Shown in pieces: positions 23,450 through 45,152 of a stretch of 64,000 nt of DNA. Origin of the DNA: Marivibrio halodurans (GTDB lineage: Bacteria > Pseudomonadota > Alphaproteobacteria > UBA8366 > Aestuariispiraceae); the NCBI RefSeq assembly GCF_017963645.1, contig NZ_JAGMWN010000003.1:124001-188000 (forward strand), written 5' to 3'. Numbering within the stretch: the first letter of the stretch is position 1; the number at the start of each line of letters is the position of its first letter. The position numbers were made by a program, and so were the translations under genes. Below the pieces are notes generated by a model. That model ran no database searches, was not told the DNA's origin, and saw only the letters and a list, made by a program, of their open reading frames with translations.

Positions 23450-23878
23450 TCAACTCATGACATAGTCGCGCAGCGCTTCCGCCTCGTGCTGAAGGTTGGC
23501 GATCTTGTGCTTCACCACATCGCCGATCGACACGACGCCGACGAGTTCACCGTCCTCCACCACCGGCATGTGCCGGAAGCGGCCGTCGGTCATCTTGCGC
23601 ATGACATTGTCGATCGATTCCGCGCGGTCGCAGACCGTCACCGCCTCCGTCATGAGGCGGCTGACCGGCTGCTTCAGCACATCGGCGCCATGGGCGGCGA
23701 GACCACGCACGATATCGCGTTCCGACAGGATGCCGGCGACCTTGCGCGCCGGGCTGACGACGATGACCGCGCCGACCTTGCGTTCCGCCAGGATCTTCGA
23801 GGCCGCGTCGATCGTCTGATCCGGCGTGACCGTCAGGACGTCGCCGTCCTTACCCGAAAGGATGGATGCTACACTCAT
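23450..23878 (-). CDS. Tandem CBS-domain protein
   Basis: This 142-residue protein consists of two CBS domains (about residues 8-65 and 75-130). They show VGAVIVVSPARKVAGILSER and FRHMPVVEDGELVGVVSIGD, typical adenosyl-nucleotide sensing pairs, followed by a short C-terminal helix. The start at 23878 has a perfect AAGGAGG site ten bases upstream; the frame extends further but without signals. Stand-alone CBS pairs often regulate partners in response to ATP/AMP. It converges on the DUF1501 gene, so it is not part of that operon. Confidence 0.88.
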   Translation of the reverse strand: MSVASILSGKDGDVLTVTPDQTIDAASKILAERKVGAVIVVSPARKVAGILSERDIVRGLAAHGADVLKQPVSRLMTEAVTVCDRAESIDNVMRKMTDGRFRHMPVVEDGELVGVVSIGDVVKHKIANLQHEAEALRDYVMS

Positions 23879-24130
23879 GTCAGGCTCGCCTCCTTGGGGT
23901 CGTTTCCTCGTCCGTCGGGGTATTTCCCCTTTTCTCCCACGCGCCCCCGCGATCGGGGCGAGGCCGCGCGAACGGGGTCCTTGACCGCCCCGTCGGCCCG
24001 ACAGTATAGGCGCGAAGCGAAAGACGCGAAACAGGCTGATGCACACGCACGGCGAGCAGGGTCGGCGGAAGGCGGCGCGGCATAGGCCGCCGAGGGGCAC
24101 AGAACCCCAAGATCCCAGGATATCAAGAGC

Positions 24131-24784
24131 CTAGAAGGAGGAGTTCGGCTCCTCCAGGAAGGCCGCTTCCTCCGCCGTCGTCTCACGGCCCAGGGTGACG
24201 TTGCGGTGCGGAAACCGGCCGAAACGGGCGATGATCTCACGATGGCGCAGGGCTGATTGGTAGGCCTCCTCGATGCCCAGCCCCTCGAACAGGCTGACCG
24301 CCCGTTCCTGATCCAGCAATTCCTCCGAATGCATGAAGGGCATGTAGAGGAACTGGCGGCCATAGCGCCCCATCTCGGCGTCCGCGCCGATCCGGATCGC
24401 CTCGTCGGCGAGCGCACGGGCCTGGGGATCGGACTCATAGGCACGCGGATCGTCACGATAGAGATTGCGCGGAAACTGGTCGAGCACGATAACGGCGGCC
24501 AGCAGGCCGCCCGCGCTCGCCGCCCAATGCGGCAATCCGCCCATGGCGACCCGGGCGGCCAGCGTACCGAATCGCTCCGATATCGCGTGATCCACCTCCT
24601 CGTCCCGGGTGAACCACTGGCGCGGTGTCAGGTCGCCGAACCAGAACTCCAGCACGGCCTGGGCATCGTCATCCGGTCCCACGACACCCAGAACCTCCTG
24701 ATCCGCCCCAACCGGCCGGTCGAGGTCATCATCCGTCGCATCCGCGCCCCCGGCTTCCGGCGCCGCACCCTTTTCCTGCGTCAT
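24131..24784 (-). CDS. DUF924 family protein
   Basis: This 217-residue protein matches DUF924: VLEFWFGDLTPRQWFTRDEE, ILDQFPRN-type motif VIVLDQFPRNLYRDDPRAY, and FLYMPFMHSEELLDQERAV. The fold is all-helical and TPR-like; the biochemical role is not known. The ATG at 24784 has GAGG six bases upstream. The first 40 residues are acidic and probably disordered. It lies 252 bp upstream of the CBS gene in the same direction. Confidence 0.82.
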   Translation of the reverse strand: MTQEKGAAPEAGGADATDDDLDRPVGADQEVLGVVGPDDDAQAVLEFWFGDLTPRQWFTRDEEVDHAISERFGTLAARVAMGGLPHWAASAGGLLAAVIVLDQFPRNLYRDDPRAYESDPQARALADEAIRIGADAEMGRYGRQFLYMPFMHSEELLDQERAVSLFEGLGIEEAYQSALRHREIIARFGRFPHRNVTLGRETTAEEAAFLEEPNSSF

Positions 24785-25011
24785 CGTTCCTCGCTCTATT
24801 CCGTTGGGTCCGAGGCTGCTTTGCCATGCGCCGTGCCGGCCCCCGGTCGCACCACGTCCAATCGCCCAACCCAGCCCCACGCCACCCCAAACCTAGGGAA
24901 TGCGGGCCGAGGAAACAATTCGAACCGAACGCTCTCGGGCGGGCTTGCGTGCCCACGGGCGAGACGTTATAAGCCCTTCCGCCGTCGGGCGAACCCGCCC
25001 GCCGGCCATGT

Positions 25012-25435: not shown

Positions 25436-26107
25436 TTAGCGAACCAGCCGCGACAATGCCGCCGCCGCGGCGCCTTGGACATGTTTTCGGCATGCGTCGT
25501 GGGTCGCCGCCTCGTCACGGGCCTCCACGCCGGCAAGGATATCCTTCAACTCCCGCAGACTTTGCTCGGAGCGCGTGCCACTGTCCAGCGAGAGACGGCG
25601 CAACAAACTGACCCTGGCATTCATGGTGGTCAGAATCGAGGCGATCATTTCGTTTCCGGCCCCCTTGAACAAGATCTTGTAGAATGCGTCCTTGGCTTCG
25701 AGTATCCGCGTCAGTTCGCGGCTCGCATAGGCGTCGGCGATCTTGTCGACGGAGCGACGCAAGGTGGCGACCTGCGCCGCCGTCGCCTTCTGAACGAACA
25801 GAACGCCCGCATAGGTTTCCAGCGCCTCGCGCACTTCGTAGATTTCACGGGCCTGTTCGGCGGAGATCATCGCGACGATCGCACCGCGATTGGCGACCAT
25901 CTCCACCAGCCCCTCGCTTTCGAGCTGGCGCAGCGCCTCGCGCACCGATGTGCGACTGGCCCCCGTCAGATCGCAGAGTTCGCGCTCGACAAGGCGTTCG
26001 CCCGGAACGAACCGACCCGACACGATCGCCGAGCGAAAAGCCTCGACGACTTGATGGCGTATCGGCGCGGAAACCGTCGTCACGCGCATCGTTTGATGGT
26101 CACTCAA
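25436..26107 (-). CDS. GntR-family transcriptional regulator (FCD subfamily)
   Basis: This 223-residue regulator has an N-terminal winged helix (residues 15-80: IVSGRFVPGERLVERELCDL, then SRTSVREALRQLESEGLV). A C-terminal all-helical FCD ligand domain starts at EIYEVREALETYAG. The start is TTG at 26107: GGAGGAA lies five bases upstream, whereas the next ATG (codon 7) has no site. It is the last gene of the leftward transport/catabolic operon, which it probably controls by sensing an organic acid. TTGTAT/ATTGT palindromes in the divergent promoter at 31.0-31.1 kb fit GntR-FCD operators. Confidence 0.88.
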   Translation of the reverse strand: MSDHQTMRVTTVSAPIRHQVVEAFRSAIVSGRFVPGERLVERELCDLTGASRTSVREALRQLESEGLVEMVANRGAIVAMISAEQAREIYEVREALETYAGVLFVQKATAAQVATLRRSVDKIADAYASRELTRILEAKDAFYKILFKGAGNEMIASILTTMNARVSLLRRLSLDSGTRSEQSLRELKDILAGVEARDEAATHDACRKHVQGAAAAALSRLVR

Positions 26108-26212: not shown

Positions 26213-27523
26213 TTAGAGCATCGCCGGCAGGAACAACACCAATCCGGGCAGCGCCGCCAGTAGGATCAATGTCAGAACGAAAAGCCCGACGAAGGGCCAG
26301 GACGCGCGGTAGATCGCGTTGATCGAGATATCGCTTCCGGCGCCGCCCTTGAAGGCGAACATGGTGTAGCCGAATGGCGGCGTCATCCCACCGATCGTGA
26401 CGTTGATCAGCATCAGGGTCCAGAACCAGATCGGATCGAAACCATAGGAGGTCAGGATCGGCTGATAGATCGGGATCAAGATGAGGAGCAACGCGATCTG
26501 ATCGATGAACATGCACAAGAGAAAGGGGACCAACATCAGCACGAACAGCATCACCGGACCCGGCAGGTCCAGCGCGGCGACGAACTCCACCAGATTCGTC
26601 GTGGTGCCCGTGAAAGCGAGCAACTGGCTGAACATCGCCGAACTTGCCATGATCAGAAGGATCATGGAGGAAATCCCCGCCGCCGAAACGAGCGAGTTCC
26701 ACACCATCCGCCAATTGAGCTTGCGATAGTAAGCCGCCGTGAGAAGTGTCCCGGCCACGCCGGTCGCGGCCGCCTCGGACGGCGTCGCGATCCCCAGCAG
26801 AATGAACCCCATGACCGAAAACATGATCACGCTGAAAGGCCCCAGCCGAAGCGCCGCGCGGAGCTTTTCCCGGAAGCTGACGACGGACGCGCCCCCCGTA
26901 TCCGGCGGTGCGAGGTCAGGATTCAGATGGACCCGAAACAGGGCATAGGCCGCGAACACCGCGGCCAGCAGCAGCCCGGGCAACAAGCCCGCCAGCAGCA
27001 GTTTCGCGATCGAGACGTTCGCGAGCGTCCCGATGATGATCACCAGAAGACTGGGCGGGATGATCGGCGCGAGGCTCGCCCCGGCCAGGATCGTCCCACA
27101 GGAAAGGCGCCCGTCATATCCGCGCCCCACCATCGTTCGGTAAAGCGTGCGCGCCATCATCGCGCTGACCCCGAGGGCCGATCCCGACAGAGCGCCCAGA
27201 ATCGTCGACAATGAAACCGACAGGAGATACTGGCGCCCTTTCAAACGCCCAACCAGCTTATCCACGGAGTCGAAGACGACGTCGATCGTCCCCGACCGGA
27301 AGAGCAATTCCCCCATCAGGATGAACAGCGCGATCGTCGCGAGGGAGGATGTCGTCGCGGTCTCGAACACACTGTTCGTGAACATGCCGAAACCGGATGG
27401 CCCCATGAGCAGCAACACGCCGCCCACATTGACGATGAGGAAGGCGACGAAGATTGGCACCCCGGTCAGGAAGAGGCCGAGAAGCAGCGCCAACGTGCCG
27501 CCGAGCGTTACCCACCATTCCAC
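26213..27523 (-). CDS. dctM: TRAP transporter large permease (DctM-like)
   Basis: This 436-residue membrane protein has about 12 hydrophobic segments and DctM hallmarks: GSALGVSAMMARTLYRTMVG, GTILAGASLAPIIPPSLLVI and INVTIGGMTPPFGYTMFAFK. It forms the Na+-coupled transport subunit of a tripartite ATP-independent periplasmic importer. The start is GTG at 27523, just one base after the dctQ stop, with GGGGAG nine bases upstream; the frame extends upstream to 27610 inside dctQ but without signal. It is followed by gntR after 105 bp. Confidence 0.92.
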   Translation of the reverse strand: MEWWVTLGGTLALLLGLFLTGVPIFVAFLIVNVGGVLLLMGPSGFGMFTNSVFETATTSSLATIALFILMGELLFRSGTIDVVFDSVDKLVGRLKGRQYLLSVSLSTILGALSGSALGVSAMMARTLYRTMVGRGYDGRLSCGTILAGASLAPIIPPSLLVIIIGTLANVSIAKLLLAGLLPGLLLAAVFAAYALFRVHLNPDLAPPDTGGASVVSFREKLRAALRLGPFSVIMFSVMGFILLGIATPSEAAATGVAGTLLTAAYYRKLNWRMVWNSLVSAAGISSMILLIMASSAMFSQLLAFTGTTTNLVEFVAALDLPGPVMLFVLMLVPFLLCMFIDQIALLLILIPIYQPILTSYGFDPIWFWTLMLINVTIGGMTPPFGYTMFAFKGGAGSDISINAIYRASWPFVGLFVLTLILLAALPGLVLFLPAML

Positions 27524-27524
27524 G

Positions 27525-28064
27525 TTACAGCACTCCCCGCTCGGACCGAAGGTCGAAATCCCCGGTGATCGCTTCACGGAGGAAATGAATCGCCGACAGG
27601 GCGAACCCATAGACGATGAAGGCGGTCAGCCACCATTGCGGCACCGAATGGATTCCGGCGATGAAGACGTTACGCGTATACTGGCGCACGCATTCGTCGA
27701 AACCGATCCAGGCGACGAAACCGCATACGACGAAACCGGCGAACGCGATCGCCCTACCCGCCCAGAACCGTCTTCCCGGGGCCAGCCCGTCGACCAGGAT
27801 CGTGACGCCGACATGCGCCTTCGTCCGCGTGAGATGGGGCAGCATCGAGAAGATGCTGATGCAGAAACCGTAGGAGACGACCTCCTGCGCCCAACTCGTC
27901 GGAGACTGAAAGAGATATCGCGCCACGACCTCGAAGCAGAAGCTTGCCACGATGAGCATCAAGGCGACGGCGCTGAGCCCACGACTGACCCATGTAAGCC
28001 AGTCGTGGACCCACGCCGCGGAAGCCGCCACGGAGCGCACCTTATCCGCAGTCCGTATCGTCAT
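27525..28064 (-). CDS. dctQ: TRAP transporter small permease (DctQ-like)
   Basis: This 179-residue protein has four membrane segments and the DctQ-type core SFCFEVVARYLFQSPTSWAQ, followed by KAHVGVTILVDGL. It pairs with DctM in the inner membrane. It overlaps the binding-protein gene by ATGA and abuts dctM, so the three genes are translationally coupled. Confidence 0.9.
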   Translation of the reverse strand: MTIRTADKVRSVAASAAWVHDWLTWVSRGLSAVALMLIVASFCFEVVARYLFQSPTSWAQEVVSYGFCISIFSMLPHLTRTKAHVGVTILVDGLAPGRRFWAGRAIAFAGFVVCGFVAWIGFDECVRQYTRNVFIAGIHSVPQWWLTAFIVYGFALSAIHFLREAITGDFDLRSERGVL

Positions 28065-29071
28065 TCTGCGACGAAGTCATGCTCGATGGCGAGGGCGCGA
28101 AGCTTCTTCGCGGTCTCGCCGCAACACTCCTCGCCCTGCGACCACATCGCGCTGGCCCAGGCTTCCGTCACCTTGCGCGCGTTCTCCTCGGAGAGGTCGG
28201 CCGTCGTCATCCCCAAGTCCTCGAGCTTCGCATATTCCGCCTGCTCGACCTGACGCCCGGACTCGATCGCTTCCTTCTCGATCGCCTTTCCTGCCTCGAC
28301 CATGATTTCCTGCTGTTCCGCGGATAACCCATTGAACGAATCCAGGTTCATCAGGATCGGGAAGATCCCCACCCCGAATGTCGGCCGCACTCGATAACCC
28401 GCCACCTCGTGCCACTTGAAATTGACGACCCCCGTCGAAGGCCACGCGGCACCGTCGACGACGCCCTTCTCCAGGGCGGAATAAGTCTCGCCCACCGGCA
28501 GGACCACACCGGAACCGCCGAGAGCCTCGATGACGTTCTGATACGACTTCGTGCCGCGGATCTTGCGTCCTTCCCATCCGCCGTTCTCGTCGAGCGGCTC
28601 CTTCAGGACGACCTGATACCCGTCGACGCCGGCCGAGTTCAGCGCGATGACCTTCAGGTTGTTCTGTTCCTGATAATATTGGTCGACGAGATCGAAGATC
28701 CCGACCTCCCGCGCGCGTTCGGGATCCCAGTTCTCCAACGCGTCGAGCATCGTCGCCAGACCCTTGTCACCGAGATGATAGGAGCCGTGGGTGAACAGCA
28801 GATCGAATACGCCGGCCTTGACCGGCTCCAACTGCTTGAAGGGCGGTACCGTCTCCGGCCCCCGGAAGGTAAAGGTCAGATCGCCGCCCGACTTCTCCGT
28901 GACGAGTTCGGCATAGCGCTCGGCGACATAAACCCGCGCATCGAAGCTCTTGTCCCACGACGAAAGAAACTTCAACTCCTCGGCCGGCGCGCTCGCGACG
29001 CCGGCGGCGGACAGAGCGAACGCCAGGAGCCCCACGCGTCCGACCCTTGAGAGACACTTTTCCATCAACAT
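28061..29071 (-). CDS. dctP: TRAP transporter periplasmic binding protein (DctP-like)
   Basis: This 336-residue exported protein has signal peptide RVGLLAFALSAAGVASA, followed by LKFLSSWDKSFDARVYVAER. The DctP core contains the carboxylate-binding Arg region GRKIRGTKSYQNVIEALGG and VVDGAAWPSTGVV. Family knowledge: the conserved Arg salt-bridges a carboxylate, so the ligand is likely an organic or aromatic acid. ATG at 29071 is preferred because AGGAGG sits at ideal spacing; ATGs at 29095 and 29077 are alternatives. A CC pair near the C-terminus (EECCGE) is unusual. It heads the dctPQM set. Confidence 0.9.
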   Translation of the reverse strand: MLMEKCLSRVGRVGLLAFALSAAGVASAPAEELKFLSSWDKSFDARVYVAERYAELVTEKSGGDLTFTFRGPETVPPFKQLEPVKAGVFDLLFTHGSYHLGDKGLATMLDALENWDPERAREVGIFDLVDQYYQEQNNLKVIALNSAGVDGYQVVLKEPLDENGGWEGRKIRGTKSYQNVIEALGGSGVVLPVGETYSALEKGVVDGAAWPSTGVVNFKWHEVAGYRVRPTFGVGIFPILMNLDSFNGLSAEQQEIMVEAGKAIEKEAIESGRQVEQAEYAKLEDLGMTTADLSEENARKVTEAWASAMWSQGEECCGETAKKLRALAIEHDFVAE

Positions 29072-29185
29072 GACCATTTCCTCCTGTTCCTTCATTCTCG
29101 ATTGGGTTGCTGTCGCGAGATACCCATTGGCCCAGTCGATGGCCGGGCCCCATCGGGCGACAGTCCGATGGACATCGGAAGGGCG

Positions 29186-29623
29186 CTAGGAGGGCTCCTC
29201 CTTGCGGTCCACGAGTCCCGCATCCTCAAGCACCTGATTGGCCGACTTGAAGGCGTCCAGCCCAGCCGGCACCCCACAATAAACGGTGGCGTGAAGCAGG
29301 ACTTCCTTGATTTCCTCGGGCGTCACGCCATTGTTCAGGGCGCCGCGCACGTGCAGTTTCAATTCCGACGACCGATTCAAGGCCGTCAACATGGCGAGGT
29401 TGAGCATGCTGCGCGTCTTCGCGTCGAGGCCGTCGCGCCCCCAAGTGTACCCCCAGCACCACGCCGTCAGCATGCGCTGGAAGGATTCGGTGAAGGCGTT
29501 CGTCGATCCGAGCGAGCGGTCCACGTACTCCGCGCCAAGCACCTGGCGTCTTATGGCGAGCCCCTTCTCGAACAGAGCATCACTGTCATGCGCGTCTTCC
29601 GAAGGCGCTTTCCGATCCGTCAT
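29186..29623 (-). CDS. Carboxymuconolactone decarboxylase family protein (PcaC-like)
   Basis: This 145-residue AhpD/CMD-fold protein has RRQVLGAEYVDRSL at the start and RSMLNLAMLTALNRSSELKL followed by HVRGALNNGVTPEEIKEV and LLHATVYCGVPAGLDAF. This is the pattern of 4-carboxymuconolactone decarboxylase (PcaC), with its His residues. It lacks the CxxC peroxidase motif of AhpD. Good PcaC resemblance suggests a decarboxylation or isomerisation late in aromatic ring breakdown. It sits between coxG and the TRAP genes; start ATG has GTAGGAG upstream. The true substrate is unknown because ring-cleavage genes are not in the window. Confidence 0.82.
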   Translation of the reverse strand: MTDRKAPSEDAHDSDALFEKGLAIRRQVLGAEYVDRSLGSTNAFTESFQRMLTAWCWGYTWGRDGLDAKTRSMLNLAMLTALNRSSELKLHVRGALNNGVTPEEIKEVLLHATVYCGVPAGLDAFKSANQVLEDAGLVDRKEEPS

Positions 29624-30165: not shown

Positions 30166-30930
30166 TCAGCCTTTGTCGACAAAATCACCGATCACCCGCA
30201 CGAAAGCGTCGTGACGCTCCAAATGCATGATGTGCGGCGCGCCAGGAATCTCGGCATATCGGGCACGCGGAATCGCATCGGCCAACGCGCGAACCATCGC
30301 GGGCGGCGTCGCTTTATCGAGCGCGCCGGCGACGCACAGCGTTTCGCATCCGACACCCATCAAGGCCTCTTGGGCATCATGGTTCGAGATCGCCCGCCAC
30401 CCGGCCGCCCAACCGCTCACATCGTCGGAAAGAAGACGGCGTCGAACCCGCTCCGCGCCGCCGGATGCCAGGAATTCCGGCGTGAACCACCGTTCGAGCG
30501 TCGGCTCGACGACGCCCCCCATGCCGCCACGGCGCGCATCCTCGCCACGCGCCGCCAAGGCAGGGCGGATATCGTCGGGAAACCGGCCCGGACAACCGCA
30601 CAGGACCAAACGGCTGACCAGATCGGGCCGCCGTATCGTCAGGTGCTGCGCGATCATGCCGCCAAAGGACAGGCCGACGACGATGACGGGCCCGAGATCG
30701 AGGCTTTCGATCAACCGCGCGGTGTCATCGGCATAATCTGCGAGCGACGGCTCCCCCACGACACCGGGAGACCCGCCGTGACCACGCTGGTCGACCGCGA
30801 TCACGCGATGCCCGGGCGCAAGCGCCTCCTGCACGTCCCGCCAGGACTCATGATCCAGGCCGATCGCATGCAAGAGCACCAGCGGCACCCCGCCCCCGAT
30901 CGAATGACAATTCAACATGTCCTTCACCAT
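30166..30930 (-). CDS. Alpha/beta hydrolase (3-oxoadipate enol-lactonase-like)
   Basis: This 254-residue alpha/beta hydrolase has oxyanion region LVLLHAIGLDHESW, VDQRGHGGS, nucleophile elbow VVGLSFGGMIAQHL and catalytic His in APHIMHLERHDAF. The style resembles PcaD enol-lactonases, fitting the neighbouring CMD-like gene. ATG at 30930 is preferred over the far upstream start at 31044, which would overlap the operator palindrome; ATG 30918 is also possible. It is the first gene of the leftward operon. Confidence 0.8.
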   Translation of the reverse strand: MVKDMLNCHSIGGGVPLVLLHAIGLDHESWRDVQEALAPGHRVIAVDQRGHGGSPGVVGEPSLADYADDTARLIESLDLGPVIVVGLSFGGMIAQHLTIRRPDLVSRLVLCGCPGRFPDDIRPALAARGEDARRGGMGGVVEPTLERWFTPEFLASGGAERVRRRLLSDDVSGWAAGWRAISNHDAQEALMGVGCETLCVAGALDKATPPAMVRALADAIPRARYAEIPGAPHIMHLERHDAFVRVIGDFVDKG

Positions 30931-30998
30931 CCCCTCCCGCAGCCGGCCATCCGACGCACCGCTCCGCCCTTCTACGCCGAAGTGCGAAACCACGTCAA

Positions 30999-31017
30999 CA
31001 TACAATATGCTTGTATG
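30999..31017. promoter_or_regulatory. Palindrome resembling a GntR/FCD operator (site 1)
   Basis: CATACAA-TATGC-TTGTATG is a perfect 7-bp inverted repeat in the AT-rich gap between the divergent hydrolase genes. The TTGTAT/ATACAA half-sites resemble operators of FCD-type GntR regulators, and such a regulator is encoded at 25.4-26.1 kb. Confidence 0.55.
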
Positions 31018-31099
31018 ACAATTTATTCGCCCGTGTATTTCCATATATCCCCACTTTTACGGCGTTTTTTCCGAAGAACTTCGTATTATGAGAATATGG

Positions 31100-31111: not shown

Positions 31112-31161
31112 GATACATTTTCGTGTCCTATCTCGCTCAATCAACAAGACGGGAGGAAATC

Positions 31162-31989
31162 ATGCCGTTCTGGACATCGCGGGGCGCGAAGCTCTTCTGC
31201 CATCAGGAGGGGGGCGGCGCGCCCATCCTTCTCATTCCGGGACTGGGGCTCGACCATCAGTATTATCGTCTGGCAACTCCGTTTCTGGCGGAGTCTCTGT
31301 CCGTTCACGCGGTCGACCCACGGGGGATCGGCCAATCCGACGCGGGCGATCGCCCCTTCACGGTCGAGGAATGGGCGGCCGATTTGGCGGAGATGATCCC
31401 GCAGCTGGGGGTCGGACCGGTTCACGTGCTCGGGACGTCGCTCGGCGGCGCGATGGCGCTGGCCCTGGCCGAAGCCGCCCCGGATATGGTTCGCAGCCTG
31501 ACGGTGGTTGGCGCCTTCAGCGAACTGGATCGCGCCGCCGTGCTGAACTTCGACCTCCGCAAGCGGTTGATCGAGAAGCTGGGCTTCAGCGCCGAGGTGG
31601 CGGATTACATGGGCCTCTGGACCATGACGCGCGAATTCATCAACAGCGATGAAGGCTATGCGCAGATGCAGGCCAACCAGAAGATCATCCGAAACAACTC
31701 CCCGGAACGGTATCTGGAGTTCGTGCGTTCCGTGCTCGCCTGGGGCCGGGAATTGCCGGAACAGAAGGACGAGCCCAAATTCACCGCCCGCCTAGGCGGC
31801 ATCACGGCCCCCACGCTCGTCGTGGGATCCGCGAACGATCATCTGATTCCGCTTCGCCTCAGCGAAATCATCGCGGAGAACATCCCCGGGGCGGACCTCG
31901 TCGTCATGCCCGACGGCGGTCACATCCCCTTCGTCGAGAAGCCGCGGGAAGCCTCCCGGATCGTTCTCGACTTCGTCACCAACCACTGA
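31162..31989 (+). CDS. Alpha/beta hydrolase
   Basis: This 275-residue alpha/beta hydrolase has ILLIPGLGLDHQYY, VDPRGIGQSD, nucleophile elbow VLGTSLGGAMALAL, acid region VVGSANDHLIP and catalytic His in MPDGGHIPFVEKP. It is a different branch from the hydrolase on the leftward arm. ATG at 31162 has GGGAGG upstream; the frame is open to 31123 but without signal. It opens the rightward operon ahead of the molybdenum hydroxylase and may cleave an ester, lactone or ring-cleavage product. Confidence 0.82.
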   Translation: MPFWTSRGAKLFCHQEGGGAPILLIPGLGLDHQYYRLATPFLAESLSVHAVDPRGIGQSDAGDRPFTVEEWAADLAEMIPQLGVGPVHVLGTSLGGAMALALAEAAPDMVRSLTVVGAFSELDRAAVLNFDLRKRLIEKLGFSAEVADYMGLWTMTREFINSDEGYAQMQANQKIIRNNSPERYLEFVRSVLAWGRELPEQKDEPKFTARLGGITAPTLVVGSANDHLIPLRLSEIIAENIPGADLVVMPDGGHIPFVEKPREASRIVLDFVTNH

Positions 31990-32051: not shown

Positions 32052-34391
32052 ATGGGACAATTCGGCAAACGCCAAGTCCGCGCCGAGGATGACCGGCTTA
32101 TCACGGGACGTGGATGCTATATCGACGACATCACGCTTCCCAACATGGCCCATATTGTCGTTGTCCGAAGCCAGGCCGCGCACGCGCGGATTACCGTGGA
32201 CACATCGGACGCCCGTGCGCTTGACGGGGTGATCGCGGTCTTCACGGCCGAGGATCTGCCCGAAGCGGCCCGAATTCTCCCGGATTGCCACCCCAATCCG
32301 GCGCTGACGAACCCCCGGGGGCCCTCCGTGCTCGCCAATGGGCTCGTGCGCTATGTCGGAGAACCGATCGCGGCGATCGTCGCCGAGAACCGATATATCG
32401 CCGAGGACGCGGCGGAATTGGTCCAGGTCGACTATGAGACCGAGGCCGCCGTGATCGATCTGGAAAAGGCCCTGACCAAGCAATCGGCGCGTGTTCACGA
32501 AGACCTGCCCTCCAATCTCGCCGCATTGATCAACATCGCCACGGGAAATGCCGACAGCGCCTTCGCCAAGGCCCATTGTGTCGTCAAGGAGCGCCTGGAG
32601 ATACAGCGGGGCGCCGGACAAGCGATGGAGACACGGGGCGTCGTCGCCCATTGGAACCGTTTCGAGGACCGCATGGTGGTCTGGAACGTCTCGCAGGTTC
32701 CGTATGTGCATCGCACCGCGATCGCCAATGCGCTGGGCCTGCCGGAGCGGCAGGTTCAGGTCCAGAACCCCGATGTCGGGGGAGGCTTCGGATATAAGGG
32801 GCTGACCTACACCGAGGACATCCTGGTCCCGGTCGTCGCGCGCCAATTGGACCGCCCGGTGAAATGGATCGAGGATCGGCGCGAACACCTGATCGCGTCC
32901 TATCACGAACGCACGCAGATTCATGAATTGGAGATGGCCACCACCGAGGATGGGACGATCCTCGGGATACGCGGCCGCTTCTATCACGATACCGGCGCCT
33001 ACACGCCCTGGGGCCCCGTCGTCCCCCTGCTGACGGCCGTCAACATTCCCGGGCCGTATCGCGTTCCGAACTACGCGGTGCAATGCGATATCGTCTACAC
33101 CAACACGACCCCGGTGGCGCCGGTTCGAGGGGCGGGACGTCCGCAGGCCTGCTACGTGACCGAGCGATTGCTCGACCGCGTCGGCAAGGAACTCGGGATC
33201 GACCCGGCGGCGTTGCGCAAACGCAACCTGATCACCGCCGAGGAATATCCCTATGACGTCGGCTTCATTTCCCGCGACGGAACACGGCGAACCTATGACA
33301 GCGGGAACGTTCCGGCATTGCTGGACCGCGCGCTGGAGATACTGGACTACGACAATACTCTGGCCGATTGCGCCAAACTGCGAACGGAAGGGCGTTATCG
33401 CGGAATCGGAATTGCCTGCTGCGTCGAGGACACGGGCCTCGGTCCCTTCGAGGAAGTAGGCATGTCGATCGAAGCCGACGGCTCCGTGACCGTCCGAATG
33501 GGAACGCCGAGCCAGGGGCAGGGACAGAAAACCTCCTTCGCGCAAGTCGCCGCCGACATACTGGGCGTGCCCTTCGACAAGGTGAAGGTTCTCACCGGCA
33601 ACACCGATCTCGTCCGCTACAGCATCGGAACCTTCGCCAGCCGCGCCGGCGTCGTCACCGGCTCGGCGGTCAGTATCGCGGCGAACCAGTTGAAGGAACG
33701 GGCCTGCGCGATCGGAGCCGTGCTGCTTCAGACGTCCCCCGAGGAACTCGACCTGAAGGACGGCAAGGTGGTGCTCAAAGCCGACGAAACGCGAAGCATC
33801 GATCTCGCCCAGATCGTCCATACGTCCCTCGGCGAATCCGGCAACCCGCTTCCCTTGCCCGATTTCGGTCCGGGCATGAGCACGACGGCCTCCTTCAGCC
33901 CGCCGACCAACACCTTCGCGACCGGCTGCCATGCCGCACTCGTCGAGGTGGACCCGGCGACCTGCAAGGTTGAAATCCTGCGCTATATCGCGGTCGAGGA
34001 TTTCGGGAACCTCATCAACCCCCTGATCGTCGATGGTCAGGTGATCGGCGGGGTGTCGCTGGGCGTCGGAAACACCTTCTTCGAGAAGGCCGTCTATGAT
34101 TCCGAGGGACAGATTCTCACCGGCACCTTCATGGACTATCTCGTCGCAACATCGATGGACGTGCCACGCGTGGAAATCGACCATCTCTCGACGCCCAGCC
34201 CGCTCAACCCACTGGGAATGAAGGGCGCCGGCCAGGGGGGCACGATTCCCGTTCCCGCGGTGATCAGTTCGGCGGTCGAGAATGCGCTGGAGCCCTTCGG
34301 GGTTCATCTGTGCGCGGTCCCCTTCAGTGAAAGCGACCTGTTCCAAAACCTTCGGAACGATGATTCCAAGAGCACGAGGAAGTCGGCATGA
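32052..34391 (+). CDS. Molybdenum hydroxylase large subunit (CoxL/xanthine dehydrogenase family) with Gln at the catalytic Glu site
   Basis: This 779-residue molybdopterin-binding subunit has GRGCYIDDI at the start of the 'a/b hammerhead', VGGGFGYKGLTYTED (Mo-pterin/FeS interface) and VRGAGRPQACYVTER at residues 358-372, a form-II-like loop. GTPSQGQGQKTSFAQ follows. It lacks the CO dehydrogenase form I AYRCSFR loop, so it is not a classical CO dehydrogenase. The C-terminal motif that normally reads GxGExG reads KGAGQGGTIP, placing Gln728 (codon CAG at 34233-34235) where the family has the catalytic Glu. It hydroxylates an unknown aromatic, heteroaromatic or aldehyde substrate if active. GGAG lies upstream; it overlaps the FAD subunit gene by ATGA. 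Confidence 0.9.
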   Translation: MGQFGKRQVRAEDDRLITGRGCYIDDITLPNMAHIVVVRSQAAHARITVDTSDARALDGVIAVFTAEDLPEAARILPDCHPNPALTNPRGPSVLANGLVRYVGEPIAAIVAENRYIAEDAAELVQVDYETEAAVIDLEKALTKQSARVHEDLPSNLAALINIATGNADSAFAKAHCVVKERLEIQRGAGQAMETRGVVAHWNRFEDRMVVWNVSQVPYVHRTAIANALGLPERQVQVQNPDVGGGFGYKGLTYTEDILVPVVARQLDRPVKWIEDRREHLIASYHERTQIHELEMATTEDGTILGIRGRFYHDTGAYTPWGPVVPLLTAVNIPGPYRVPNYAVQCDIVYTNTTPVAPVRGAGRPQACYVTERLLDRVGKELGIDPAALRKRNLITAEEYPYDVGFISRDGTRRTYDSGNVPALLDRALEILDYDNTLADCAKLRTEGRYRGIGIACCVEDTGLGPFEEVGMSIEADGSVTVRMGTPSQGQGQKTSFAQVAADILGVPFDKVKVLTGNTDLVRYSIGTFASRAGVVTGSAVSIAANQLKERACAIGAVLLQTSPEELDLKDGKVVLKADETRSIDLAQIVHTSLGESGNPLPLPDFGPGMSTTASFSPPTNTFATGCHAALVEVDPATCKVEILRYIAVEDFGNLINPLIVDGQVIGGVSLGVGNTFFEKAVYDSEGQILTGTFMDYLVATSMDVPRVEIDHLSTPSPLNPLGMKGAGQGGTIPVPAVISSAVENALEPFGVHLCAVPFSESDLFQNLRNDDSKSTRKSA

Positions 34392-35281
34392 AACCACCCG
34401 TCTTCGAATTCGCCGCGCCCGACTCGCTCGAGCATTGCCTGGATCTCCTCGAACGCTACGGCGACGAGGCAAAGCCGATCGCCGGCGGGCAGAGCCTCAT
34501 GCCGCTGCTCAACCTGCGCATGGCGGCCCCCGCCGTCGTGATCGACATCGCCAGGGTCCCGGATTTCCATGCCCTGCGGATCGAGGATAGGACCGTCCGG
34601 GTCGGACCGATGGTGCGGCAACGCGTCATGGAAACGAACACCGACCTGCGCGCGCGCGTTCCCTTGCTCGCGGAGGCCGTCGGCCTGATCGGCCATGTGG
34701 CCACCCGCAGCCGCGGCACGATCGTAGGGTCCATGTGCCACGCGGACCCCGCAGCGGAGCTTCCGGTCTGCGCGACGCTGCTCGGCGCGGAATTCGCCGT
34801 CGCCTCCAAGGGGGGAACCAGGACAATAGATGCCGACTCCTTTTTCCTCGATGCCTTGATGACGACGCTCGAACCCGAAGAAATCGTTACCGGTGTCCAC
34901 CTGCCGACCGCCATGCCGGGCGTGGGCTATGCCTTCGACGAGGTATCGCGCCGCCGGGGCGATTTCGCGCTGGTCGCGGTCGCGGCCGCGGTCGGACTAT
35001 CCGACGACGGCCTCGTCACCTCGGCGGACATCGCCATCGGCGGGGCGTCGGGACGGCCCGAACGTTTCCCGCTGACCGAGACCGCCCTGTCCGGCCGCCG
35101 CATCGAAGAGGCCCCGCTCCGTGAGATCGCCCGGGAGGTCTGCGACAGGCTCGAACCGGAATCGGACCTCCATGCCAGCGCCGATTATCGACGCCGGATT
35201 TCGGAAGAACTCATGACCCGCGTTCTGGCCGACGCGGCTTCCCGAGCCAGGAAGGATTTGACCCGTGAACACGCCCTCTAA
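34388..35281 (+). CDS. Molybdenum hydroxylase FAD subunit (CoxM-like)
   Basis: This 297-residue FAD-binding medium subunit has FEFAAPDSLEHCLDLLERYG, the flavin motif PIAGGQSLMPLLNLRMA (AGGQS type), a second flavin motif near GHVATRSRGTIVGSMCHADP, and the C-terminal CO_deh_flav_C domain (from about residue 180). It passes electrons from the Fe-S subunit to an external acceptor. It overlaps both neighbours (4 bp and 17 bp), so it is part of a coupled L-M-S operon. Confidence 0.92.
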   Translation: MKPPVFEFAAPDSLEHCLDLLERYGDEAKPIAGGQSLMPLLNLRMAAPAVVIDIARVPDFHALRIEDRTVRVGPMVRQRVMETNTDLRARVPLLAEAVGLIGHVATRSRGTIVGSMCHADPAAELPVCATLLGAEFAVASKGGTRTIDADSFFLDALMTTLEPEEIVTGVHLPTAMPGVGYAFDEVSRRRGDFALVAVAAAVGLSDDGLVTSADIAIGGASGRPERFPLTETALSGRRIEEAPLREIAREVCDRLEPESDLHASADYRRRISEELMTRVLADAASRARKDLTREHAL

Positions 35282-35774
35282 GCGAACGCAGATCAGCATT
35301 ACCGTCAACGGCAAGACCTACAGCCGCGACGTCGAGGCGCGTCGAACGCTGGCCGATTTCCTGCGCGAGGATCTCGGCCTCACCGGCACGCATATCGGAT
35401 GCGAGCACGGCGCCTGTGGCGCCTGCACGGTGACGGTCGATGGCATGCTGGCCCGGTCGTGCCTGACACTCGCGAGCCAGATGGACGGCTGCGAGATCCG
35501 CACGGTCGAGGGGCTTTCCGGTCCGAATGGGCTGCACCCCATCCAAGCCGCCTTCAAGGAACACCACGCGCTTCAGTGCGGCTACTGCACGCCGGGCTTT
35601 CTCGTGACCGCCGCGGCGATGCTGGAGGAGACCCAGGACCCGACGGAAGGTCAGGTTCGCGATTGGTTGAGTGGAAATATCTGCCGCTGCACCGGCTATC
35701 AGTTCATCGTCGACGCGGTACTGTCCGCGGCGGAAACGATGCGAAGCGAGACCGAGGAAAGGGACGCCTCCTAA
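35265..35774 (+). CDS. Molybdenum hydroxylase 2Fe-2S subunit (CoxS-like)
   Basis: This 169-residue small subunit has a plant-type [2Fe-2S] motif (GCEHGACGACTVTVDG plus a later Cys in ARSCLTLASQ) and a C-terminal helical [2Fe-2S] domain (LQCGYCTPGFLVTAAAM and NICRCTGYQFIVDAV). All eight cluster cysteines are visible. The start is GTG at 35265, with AAGGA upstream inside the preceding gene. It completes a three-subunit enzyme of the xanthine dehydrogenase family. Confidence 0.95.
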   Translation: MNTPSKRTQISITVNGKTYSRDVEARRTLADFLREDLGLTGTHIGCEHGACGACTVTVDGMLARSCLTLASQMDGCEIRTVEGLSGPNGLHPIQAAFKEHHALQCGYCTPGFLVTAAAMLEETQDPTEGQVRDWLSGNICRCTGYQFIVDAVLSAAETMRSETEERDAS

Positions 35775-35858: not shown

Positions 35859-36581
35859 TTGAAGAAGATAATCGTAACTGGCGCGGCGAGCGGAATTGGA
35901 CATGCCTGCGTGCTCGCCCTGCGCGCGACGGGACGAAGAATTGCCGCCCTCGACATCGCGGTGGACGCGCTGGATGAACTGTATCGCGGGGACGAGGGTG
36001 TCTCGATCCACCGGCTCGATGCCGGATCGACCGAGAGTTGCCGGGAGTCGATCGACGAGGCGGTGGCCGAGTTGGGCGGCCTGGACACCTTGATCCATTG
36101 CGCCGCGATCTGGTCGGGCACCAAGTGGGAGGAGTCCGAAAAGGACGAATGGGACGCGATCCTGTCGGTCAACCTGACAGGGACGTTCTTCCTGGCAAAG
36201 GCCGCCGCATCGCACATGCGCCGCGGCGGAGGGGGCGGCATCGTGCTGACCGCCTCCGATTCCGCGCGGGTAGGCGGCGTCGCCGGAGGCCCCGCCTATG
36301 CCTCGTCGAAAGGCGGCGTGATCGCCCTCACCCGGTCGTTGGCGCGCGCCCTCGGGCCCGACGGTATCAGGGTGAATGCCGTGAACCCCGGCGTCGTCGA
36401 TACACCGATGACCCGTTCCTGGCCGCGCGCCATCATTGAACAGACCATCGAGCGTACCCCGCTCGGCCGCATCGCACGATCCGACGACGTGGCGGACGTC
36501 GCCTGCTTCCTCGCGTCCGACAAAGCCCGCTTCGTGAGCGGGGAGGTCCTGGAGGTCAATGGCGGCTTCTATTTCGATTGA
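35859..36581 (+). CDS. Short-chain dehydrogenase/reductase
   Basis: This 240-residue SDR has the nucleotide motif TGAASGIGHACVLAL, LIHCAAIW (NNAG equivalent), the catalytic serine region VLTASDSARVG, and the YxxxK motif AYASSKGGVIAL. It also has VNAVNPGVVDTPMT and C-terminal GEVLEVNGGFYFD, typical of classical SDRs. The start is TTG at 35859 with GCAGGAGAG upstream. It closes the rightward operon and probably oxidises or reduces an alcohol/ketone intermediate; the substrate is unknown. Confidence 0.88.
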   Translation: MKKIIVTGAASGIGHACVLALRATGRRIAALDIAVDALDELYRGDEGVSIHRLDAGSTESCRESIDEAVAELGGLDTLIHCAAIWSGTKWEESEKDEWDAILSVNLTGTFFLAKAAASHMRRGGGGGIVLTASDSARVGGVAGGPAYASSKGGVIALTRSLARALGPDGIRVNAVNPGVVDTPMTRSWPRAIIEQTIERTPLGRIARSDDVADVACFLASDKARFVSGEVLEVNGGFYFD

Positions 36582-42863: not shown

Positions 42864-45152
42864 CTATTCCGCCGCCTTGGCCGCGCTCTCGTTCTCACGC
42901 AGGAGCTTCAACATGCGCGGCGGGGACATCGGAATCTCCGTCGCCCGGACCTTCGCCGCCGCCGAGACGGCATTGGCGATCGCCCCCATCGGCGGCACGA
43001 TCGAGGTCTCGCCGACCCCACGCACGCCATAGGGATGGCCGGGATTGGGCTTCTCCACGATCACCGTCTCGATCATCGGCAGGTCGGAGGCGACGGGCAC
43101 CCGATAGTCCAGGAAGCCCGCATTCTCCAGAACGCCCTTGTCGCTATAGATATATTCCTCGTTGAGCGCCCAGCCGATACCCTGCACGGCGCCGCCCTGG
43201 AACTGCCCCTCGACATAGGCGGGGTGAACCGCCTTGCCCGCGTCCTGGACGACGGTATAGCGCTTCACGTCGATCCGGCCGGTTTCCCGGTCGATCTCCG
43301 CATCCACGATATGTGTGGCGAAGCTGGGGCCCGCCCCTTCGGCGGAGATTTCGTGGTGGCCGGCGATGGGGCCGCCGGTCTCCCCCGCCATCTTGGCGAT
43401 GTCGCGGAAGCTCAAGGGCGCGTGGTCGCCGGCATTCGGGCCGGAGGGAACGGCCGCGCCGCCCTCCCACTTCACCGCGTCCTCGGGAATACCCCAGATC
43501 CGGGCGGCGCGGGCGCACATCCGCTCCTTCACCTGACGGGCCGCCTGGATGGTGGCCAGACCGCTGGCGAAGGTGGCCCGGCTGCCGTCGGTCACGTCGT
43601 TATAGCCGAGCGAGGCCGTGTCCCCGATGATGGCGTAGATATCGTCATAATCGATGCCGAGTTCCTCCGCCGCCATGGCGCACATGGAAGCCCGGCTGCC
43701 GCCGATATCCGGCGTGCCGACCGACAACGCGGCCGTGCCGTCCAGATTGACGTTGAGCGTCACCGCCGTCTGACCGCCGAAATTGAACCAGAAACCACAG
43801 GCGACGCCGCGTCCCTGATTGGGGCCGAGGGGGCTGTTGTAATGCTCCGTCGCCTTGGCGGCCTCCAGCGTCTCCACCAGGCCGATCTCGTTATAGGTCG
43901 GACCGTAGGAACTCTTGCTGTGGTCGCGCGCGGCGTTCTTCAGGCGGAAGTCGATCGGATCGATGCCGAGCGCGTCGGCAAGCTCCGTCATCACGCTTTC
44001 CACCGCGAAGGCCGCCATCGGCGCCCCCGGCGCGCGATAGGCCGCCTGCTTCGGCCGGTTGGTGACGATGTCGTAGCCGACGGCGCGCACATTCTCCAGG
44101 TTATAGCAGGCGAAGGCCGCCATGGCGCCCATATCCACCGGGCTGCCCTGGAAGGCGCCGCCCTGGTACTTCAGAAGCGCGTCGGCGGCGGTGATGGTCC
44201 CGTCCGCCTTGGCCCCGACCTTGACCCACAGGCTGGCCGACGCCGTCGGCCCGGTCGCGCGGAAGACCTCGTGCCGGTCCATGACGATCTTCACCGGCTT
44301 GCCGGCCTTGCGCGAGAGCGCGACCGCCACGGGCTCGATGAAGACCGCCGTCTTTCCGCCGAAGCCGCCGCCGATCTCGCTCGCCGTGACGCGGAGATTG
44401 GAGACATCCATGCCGAGAAGCTGCGTCACCGTATCCCGAACCATGAAATGGCCCTGGGTGCAGCACCACAGTTCCCCCCGCCCGTCGGCGCCGATATTGG
44501 CCAGGCAGGCATGCGGCTCGATATAGCCCTGGTGCGCGGCGCCGGTCTTGAAGGACCGCTCGACGACCCGGTCGGCGGCGGCGAATCCGGCGTCCACGTC
44601 GCCATGGCCGATCTCCGTCCGGCCGGCGACGTTCGACGGCTTGCCCTTGCCATAGTCGTAGCCGAGGTCGTCATGCAGGATCGGCGCGTCCGGCGCCATG
44701 GCCAGATCCTCGTCGATCACATGACCCAGCACCTCGTACTCCACCTCGATCAGCTTCAGCGCCTTGCGGGCCGTGATCTTGTCGGTCGCGGCGACGGCGG
44801 CGACGGCATGGCCGTCATAAAGCGCCTTTTCCCGCGCCATGCAGTTGACGAGGATGTCGAGCAGCCCCCGATCCTCCTTCACCGCGTCGTGGATCGGGAA
44901 ATCGTCGCGCGTGACCACGGCCTTCACGCCCTCCAGCGCCTCGGCCTTGGCGGTATCGATCGACTTGATCCGGGCGTGGGCGTGCGGGCTGCGCAGGATC
45001 GCGCCGTGCAGCATGCCCGGCGCCACCGTATCCGCGCCGAAGCGCGCGCGGCCCGTCACCTTGTCGATACCGTCGGGGCGGACCGGCCGCTTCCCGACGA
45101 CGCGGAAATCACGCTTCTCGTAGCCCTGCGGGAAATCGGTCTCAAGCGGCAT
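42864..45152 (-). CDS. Molybdenum hydroxylase large subunit, second system
   Basis: This 762-residue molybdopterin subunit of the xanthine dehydrogenase family has FRVVGKRPVRPDGIDKVTGR, the interface loop SEIGGGFGGKTAVFIEP, QAAYRAPGAPMAAFAVESV near the Mo site, and an intact catalytic Glu in VRGVGETSIVPPMGAIANAV. It is a different branch from the enzyme at 32.0 kb. The AYRAPGAP loop is not the CO dehydrogenase form I loop. It hydroxylates an unknown substrate with water as oxygen source. It overlaps the Fe-S gene by 11 bp and is followed by the MoaD-like gene. Confidence 0.92.
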   Translation of the reverse strand: MPLETDFPQGYEKRDFRVVGKRPVRPDGIDKVTGRARFGADTVAPGMLHGAILRSPHAHARIKSIDTAKAEALEGVKAVVTRDDFPIHDAVKEDRGLLDILVNCMAREKALYDGHAVAAVAATDKITARKALKLIEVEYEVLGHVIDEDLAMAPDAPILHDDLGYDYGKGKPSNVAGRTEIGHGDVDAGFAAADRVVERSFKTGAAHQGYIEPHACLANIGADGRGELWCCTQGHFMVRDTVTQLLGMDVSNLRVTASEIGGGFGGKTAVFIEPVAVALSRKAGKPVKIVMDRHEVFRATGPTASASLWVKVGAKADGTITAADALLKYQGGAFQGSPVDMGAMAAFACYNLENVRAVGYDIVTNRPKQAAYRAPGAPMAAFAVESVMTELADALGIDPIDFRLKNAARDHSKSSYGPTYNEIGLVETLEAAKATEHYNSPLGPNQGRGVACGFWFNFGGQTAVTLNVNLDGTAALSVGTPDIGGSRASMCAMAAEELGIDYDDIYAIIGDTASLGYNDVTDGSRATFASGLATIQAARQVKERMCARAARIWGIPEDAVKWEGGAAVPSGPNAGDHAPLSFRDIAKMAGETGGPIAGHHEISAEGAGPSFATHIVDAEIDRETGRIDVKRYTVVQDAGKAVHPAYVEGQFQGGAVQGIGWALNEEYIYSDKGVLENAGFLDYRVPVASDLPMIETVIVEKPNPGHPYGVRGVGETSIVPPMGAIANAVSAAAKVRATEIPMSPPRMLKLLRENESAAKAAE

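Follow-up and report, generated by a model that had tools for sequence, protein, structure and literature searches.

A molybdenum hydroxylase large subunit encoded at 32052..34391 of the window (the whole 64,000-nucleotide stretch of DNA that was analysed) carries glutamine at residue 728, where characterised xanthine-oxidase-family enzymes need a glutamate for catalysis (bovine XOR E1261, CoxL E763). As its closest relatives in four other genomes share the Gln, this is a real and conserved variant that calls for a chemical explanation, not a read error. On balance we lean towards reading it as a working molybdenum hydroxylase or dehydrogenase, built of three subunits and belonging to the CoxL-like branch, with altered acid-base chemistry, which would work in a catabolic module together with an alpha/beta hydrolase. 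The features of the locus are as follows, with L009 to L012 denoting the orthologous loci in other genomes.

25436..26107, minus strand: GntR/FCD regulator; L009 and L010 have orthologues (about 56-58% identity) next to their Gln enzymes
26213..29095, minus strand: TRAP transporter (DctP 28061-29095, DctQ 27525-28064, DctM 26213-27610)
29186..29623, minus strand: carboxymuconolactone decarboxylase-family protein, also in L009 and L010 (cut by contig end)
29660..30103, minus strand: CoxG-family protein
30166..31044, minus strand: alpha/beta hydrolase ABH2, 3-oxoadipate enol-lactonase-like, also in L009 (about 50% identity)
31123..31989, plus strand: alpha/beta hydrolase ABH1, with nucleophile motif GTSLGG and with Asp and His present
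32052..34391, plus strand: molybdenum-hydroxylase large (Moco-binding) subunit, 779 aa, with Gln728 replacing the catalytic Glu
34191..34259, plus strand: residues 714-736, TPSPLNPLGMKGAGQGGTIPVPA, at 23 residues the longest run identical in the five Gln proteins
34233..34235, plus strand: codon CAG of Gln728, CAG or CAA in orthologues
34388..35281, plus strand: medium subunit, FAD-binding, with AGGQS intact and the second glycine motif TIVG, not TIGG
35265..35774, plus strand: small subunit with two [2Fe-2S] clusters, all eight Cys present
35859..36581, plus strand: SDR-family dehydrogenase, directly downstream of the L, M and S genes

By fold and descent the large subunit belongs to the xanthine-oxidase family, and it departs from the catalytic definition of that family, a Glu (bovine E1261) acting as general base, by having Gln728. 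The Pfam domains Ald_Xan_dh_C, MoCoBD_1 and MoCoBD_2 are all present above their gathering scores (E 4e-30 to 2e-80), and the AlphaFold model (pLDDT 91.2) matches family members with Z of 39.7-48.6 over about 690-754 residues. The Moco-binding motifs GGGFG, the RGAG loop and QGQG are retained together with the apical-oxo glutamine, Gln215, and the active-site Arg loop; Gln215, Phe246, Gly247, Arg359 and Gln490 are the same residues in nearly all relatives. The three genes lie in one operon, in which the reading frames of the FAD subunit and of the small subunit with its two [2Fe-2S] clusters overlap, and they encode a molybdo-iron-sulfur flavoprotein of the L/M/S type. The original statement that the small and medium subunits are intact holds: this operon, like the other four of the Gln clade, retains all eight Fe-S cysteines and the FAD motif AGGQS. 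All five Gln loci replace the FAD-site TIGG of the medium subunit by TI[VI]G or TVVG; this change (to TIVG, TIIG or TVVG) was rejected as a Gln-linked trait because the Glu-type loci L102 and L105 read TVVG and TLVG.

Translation of 32052-34391 places Gln728 in the context PLGMKGAGQGGTIPVPA, and residue 728 aligns with the catalytic Glu in all five PDB relatives with printed alignments: quinoline 2-oxidoreductase (GMGES), M. smegmatis CoxL (GIGES), 6-hydroxypseudooxynicotine dehydrogenase (GLGEI), glyceraldehyde oxidoreductase (GIGEA) and H. pseudoflava CutL (GVAES). The initial reading of a CAG-encoded Gln in the catalytic position is thus borne out, as is the statement that the second xanthine-oxidase-family enzyme of the window (42864-45152, minus strand) keeps its Glu, in RGVGETS; its fuller motif is PYGVRGVGETS. 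Seven further matches to the large subunit occur in the source genome, six of them (L002-L007) with Glu and one (L008) too partial to score. The nearest Glu-type relatives, from the same order or class, are 43-47% identical and read KGAGEGGTIP or close variants.

When one genome per species was scanned, four large-subunit orthologues came up, at 69-75% identity, in four other genomes: L009 from an Enterovirga MAG, L010 and L011 from unplaced Alphaproteobacteria MAGs, and L012 (CAMDRJ010000003.1, genome G426) from a MAG labelled Klebsiella pneumoniae, a label that is doubtful. All four read KGAGQGGTIPVPA, Gln included, which supplies the Gln-conserving clade that had been proposed as a check. 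Three of the five genes write Gln728 as CAG and the other two as CAA, so that Gln persists as its codon drifts. The idea of a misread base, or of a private point mutation in an otherwise normal Glu enzyme, raised originally because CAG lies one base from GAG, is therefore rejected, with its likelihood close to nil: four independent assemblies carry Gln, two of them with CAA. Genome G426 itself holds 36 xanthine-oxidase-family large-subunit matches, far from the content expected of Klebsiella pneumoniae, and by this count its label is very probably wrong.

In a final comparison set of 71 distinct proteins (L047, additional to these, is unreadable at residue 728), the residue is Glu in 57, Gln in the five proteins of this first clade and Gln in nine of a second clade described below, so that outside the two Gln clades every one of the 57 readable homologues has Glu. 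The five first-clade proteins are monophyletic with support of 100/100 on a long stem of ~0.6 changes per site, and the tree fits a single replacement of Glu by Gln at the base of the clade. Samples taken around the five genomes at the level of family, order, class and phylum yielded no further first-clade members, leaving one such gene per sampled group, and a plasmid search gave no match above 60% identity. This scattered distribution suggests that the first-clade genes spread by horizontal transfer.

Pairwise differences among the five genes amount to 46-60% at third codon positions, 20-26% at first and 15-18% at second positions. Besides residues 714-736, the long invariant runs of the clade include the Moco motifs DVGGGFGYKGLTY, APVRGAGRPQA and TVRMGTPSQGQGQ, and also IQRGAGQAMETRG and VRYSIGTFASRAG. 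Comparison of the five genes shows the site of residue 728 to be held under strong constraint. Decay of the large-subunit gene is rejected on this codon-position constraint and the conserved partner subunits, which uphold the earlier argument against decay.

Several further positions are invariant in the first clade and unusual elsewhere: Leu670, Tyr248, His220, Glu649, Asn517 and Ser524. Position 670, which we take to be equivalent to bovine Gln1194, near the molybdenum, is Gln in 32, His in 23 and another residue in two of the 57 Glu-type proteins, and position 517 is Asp in 54 of them. His220 lies close to the apical-oxo Gln215, and Tyr248 directly follows the GGGFG motif. In 6-hydroxypseudooxynicotine dehydrogenase the distance to Mo is 3.9 A for a conserved Gly beside the pterin-stacking Phe (PMC8305194); if that Gly is taken as Gly247 here, Tyr248 could plausibly be a compensating residue. 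Both Gln clades have Arg522 and Arg482, which few Glu enzymes carry; position 522 is Lys in one Gln-clade protein and Arg or Lys in four of the 57 Glu enzymes. The association of Arg522 comprises two events and was selected in a scan of 779 positions. Arg or Lys at 522 is also found in the second clade's nearest Glu-type relatives, so that there it predates the Gln; as a compensating residue Arg522 was demoted to a lead.

The constant companion of the Gln enzyme is the hydrolase ABH1. It adjoins the molybdenum enzyme in all five Gln loci, at 48-67% identity and with the nucleophile motif, Asp and His conserved, and no copy was detected among the 13 Glu-type loci examined. Having some alpha/beta hydrolase as a neighbour does not by itself set the Gln loci apart: the Glu-type loci L101 and L103 each have one annotated, although no orthologue of the Gln-clade ABH1 was detectable in the 13 loci tested. 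The GntR/TRAP neighbourhood originally proposed for the clade stands in part, for GntR recurs in two of the four relatives and TRAP in none of the stretches examined. Transporters differ between loci, with TRAP in the window, a branched-chain ABC type in L009 and a TctC-type receptor near L012, and the SDR-family dehydrogenase was not found beside the four orthologues. The gene content of the locus suggests a module for breaking down an organic compound taken up from outside, with the hydrolase and the L/M/S enzyme as its core. Next to the cluster lie a DUF924-family protein (24131-24880) and a CBS-domain protein (23450-24100), both apparently unrelated.

Among characterised systems, the best PDB sequence match is the quinoline 2-oxidoreductase QorB (PDB 1t3q; full-length, E 4e-142), which resembles the window enzyme in fold (Z 44.9, 35% identity), Moco motifs and three-subunit organisation, but has the catalytic Glu (GMGES) and a Gln where the window enzyme has Leu670. 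The Mo-Cu CO dehydrogenase CoxL (1n60, 8uem) shares the L/M/S subunits and a CoxG-family gene in the cluster, CoxG-family proteins being usual companions of molybdenum hydroxylases; 1n60 superposes on the AlphaFold model with Z 48.6 and rmsd 2.2 A over 753 aligned residues. The window enzyme nevertheless lacks the form I AYRCSFR loop with the Cu-ligating Cys, reading APVRGAGRPQA, has Gln in place of Glu763, and misses the NCBIfam cut-offs for aerobic CO dehydrogenase (808 against 950 bits for CODH_aero_grp5 and 496 against 991.15 for TIGR02416). The Glu-type CoxL-like relatives from the same order (L013-L025) are alike in sequence (43-47% identity), in the motif, which reads PLGVKGAGEGGTIP, and mostly in having adjacent M and S genes; they differ in having Glu at 728, and no ABH1 neighbour was detected in the loci examined. 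The 6-hydroxypseudooxynicotine dehydrogenase KdhLMS (7dqx) is likewise a three-subunit molybdenum hydroxylase, 31% identical. Its product in the nicotine pathway is cleaved by an alpha/beta hydrolase, a parallel to ABH1 beside the window enzyme. KdhLMS differs in that its Glu748 is essential (PMC8305194).

A second group of Gln proteins emerged when a degenerate DNA pattern for P-x-G-h-K-G-x-G-Q-[GA] was scanned over 385 genomes of the class. Thirteen genomes matched: the window genome, ten of another group (L083-L092) with the motif NPLGVKG[SA]GQAG, and two (L072, L081) whose matches contained no family protein. This second clade spans four alphaproteobacterial families (for example L085:6951-9251, L088:7145-9451 and L091:7088-9376), and we know of no characterised member. 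It shares with the window enzyme the Gln at the same position, Arg or Lys at 522 and intact Moco motifs, but is only about 33-36% identical and lies far from the first clade in the tree, beside Glu-type relatives, with support of 100/100. Because the two clades are separate, Glu was apparently replaced by Gln at least twice in the family, and the description of the catalytic Glu as universal, given at the outset, was not quite right. Judged from a 115-genome sample of the class, Gln is rare at this motif (about 3%), the Glu version of the pattern having 102 matches, counted from the rows listed, and the Gln version three (G000, G117, G122).

No gene for an FAD or Fe-S subunit was found in the examined flanks of the second-clade large subunits; their neighbours vary and include the M81/MlrC peptidase family, MFS, amidase and alpha/beta hydrolase. 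The Glu-type large subunits L107 (G000:C3:68000-87000, holding L005), L108 and L095 likewise had no neighbouring M and S subunits detected, and orphan large subunits seem to be common in these bacteria. An orphan large subunit was rejected as a Gln-linked trait on the same three cases.

Two engineered enzymes bear directly on mechanism. Mouse AOX1 E1265Q, which carries the identical substitution, is Moco-loaded yet inactive (PMC2671166), and KdhL E748A is inactive too (PMC8305194), so that the standard general-base mechanism would not be expected to operate unaided in the Gln enzyme. The constraint on the site, the intact electron-transfer chain and the inactivity of the engineered variants together make a working enzyme with different proton handling the likeliest account. 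In such an enzyme the Mo-OH would have no carboxylate general base. The substrate itself, through a ring nitrogen or carboxylate, might take the proton, and a QM/MM study of KdhL that in part proposes a substrate nitrogen as acceptor of the Mo-OH proton (PMC8305194) offers by analogy one way in which this could occur. Alternatively, a residue gained in the first clade may remove the proton, with Tyr248, Glu649 and His220 as candidates. Gln728 would orient the substrate through hydrogen bonds, possibly near the positive charge of Arg522 and Arg482, and the oxidised product would pass to the neighbouring hydrolase.

A molybdenum reaction of another type, one for which no carboxylate base is required, such as reductive oxygen removal, a hydration-like reaction or oxygen-atom transfer, is an unlikely alternative. 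Loss of the base and the change of Gln or His to Leu at 670 suggest a remodelled pocket, and the missing Fe-S and FAD genes in the examined stretches of the second clade would fit a non-redox use there; Glu-type relatives, however, include orphan large subunits as well, so orphanhood is not tied to Gln. The window enzyme, moreover, retains the complete electron-transfer chain, and 4-hydroxybenzoyl-CoA reductase, a reductive member of the family, is described as keeping its Glu. Pseudoenzymes usually relax cofactor and active-site motifs; here the Moco and active-site motifs are the most strongly conserved parts, none of the eight Fe-S cysteines is lost and an intact hydrolase gene adjoins. These features argue that the large subunit is improbable as a protein that no longer catalyses hydroxylation and is retained for some other purpose, for example binding, regulation or assembly, even though the inactivity of the E-to-Q and E-to-A enzymes (PMC2671166, PMC8305194) is what such a protein would predict. 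Very unlikely is an essentially standard mechanism, in which the Gln hydrogen bond suffices with an acidic Mo-OH or Gln728 is deamidated post-translationally to Glu. Gln is isosteric with Glu, one base apart from it and set in an unchanged motif, but it is insufficient in mouse AOX1, and a needed Glu could have been restored by one base change in any of five lineages, which have kept CAG and CAA.

Returning to the preferred reading of altered proton handling, its extension to both clades is more tentative, and we give it somewhat less than an even chance: two separate lineages may each have dropped the catalytic Glu and evolved a carboxylate-free molybdenum chemistry in which the proton leaves via the substrate or a new residue. 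If so, the Glu long held essential in the xanthine-oxidase family is not indispensable, although it is treated as such and its experimental removal abolishes activity. A naturally occurring, conserved Gln family with an intact electron-transfer chain in its operon makes the role of the Glu directly testable, by assaying one protein as found and with Glu restored. Searches of the open-access literature returned no report of a natural Gln variant. Automatic annotation of the Gln proteins as xanthine or CO dehydrogenases is probably wrong on chemistry.
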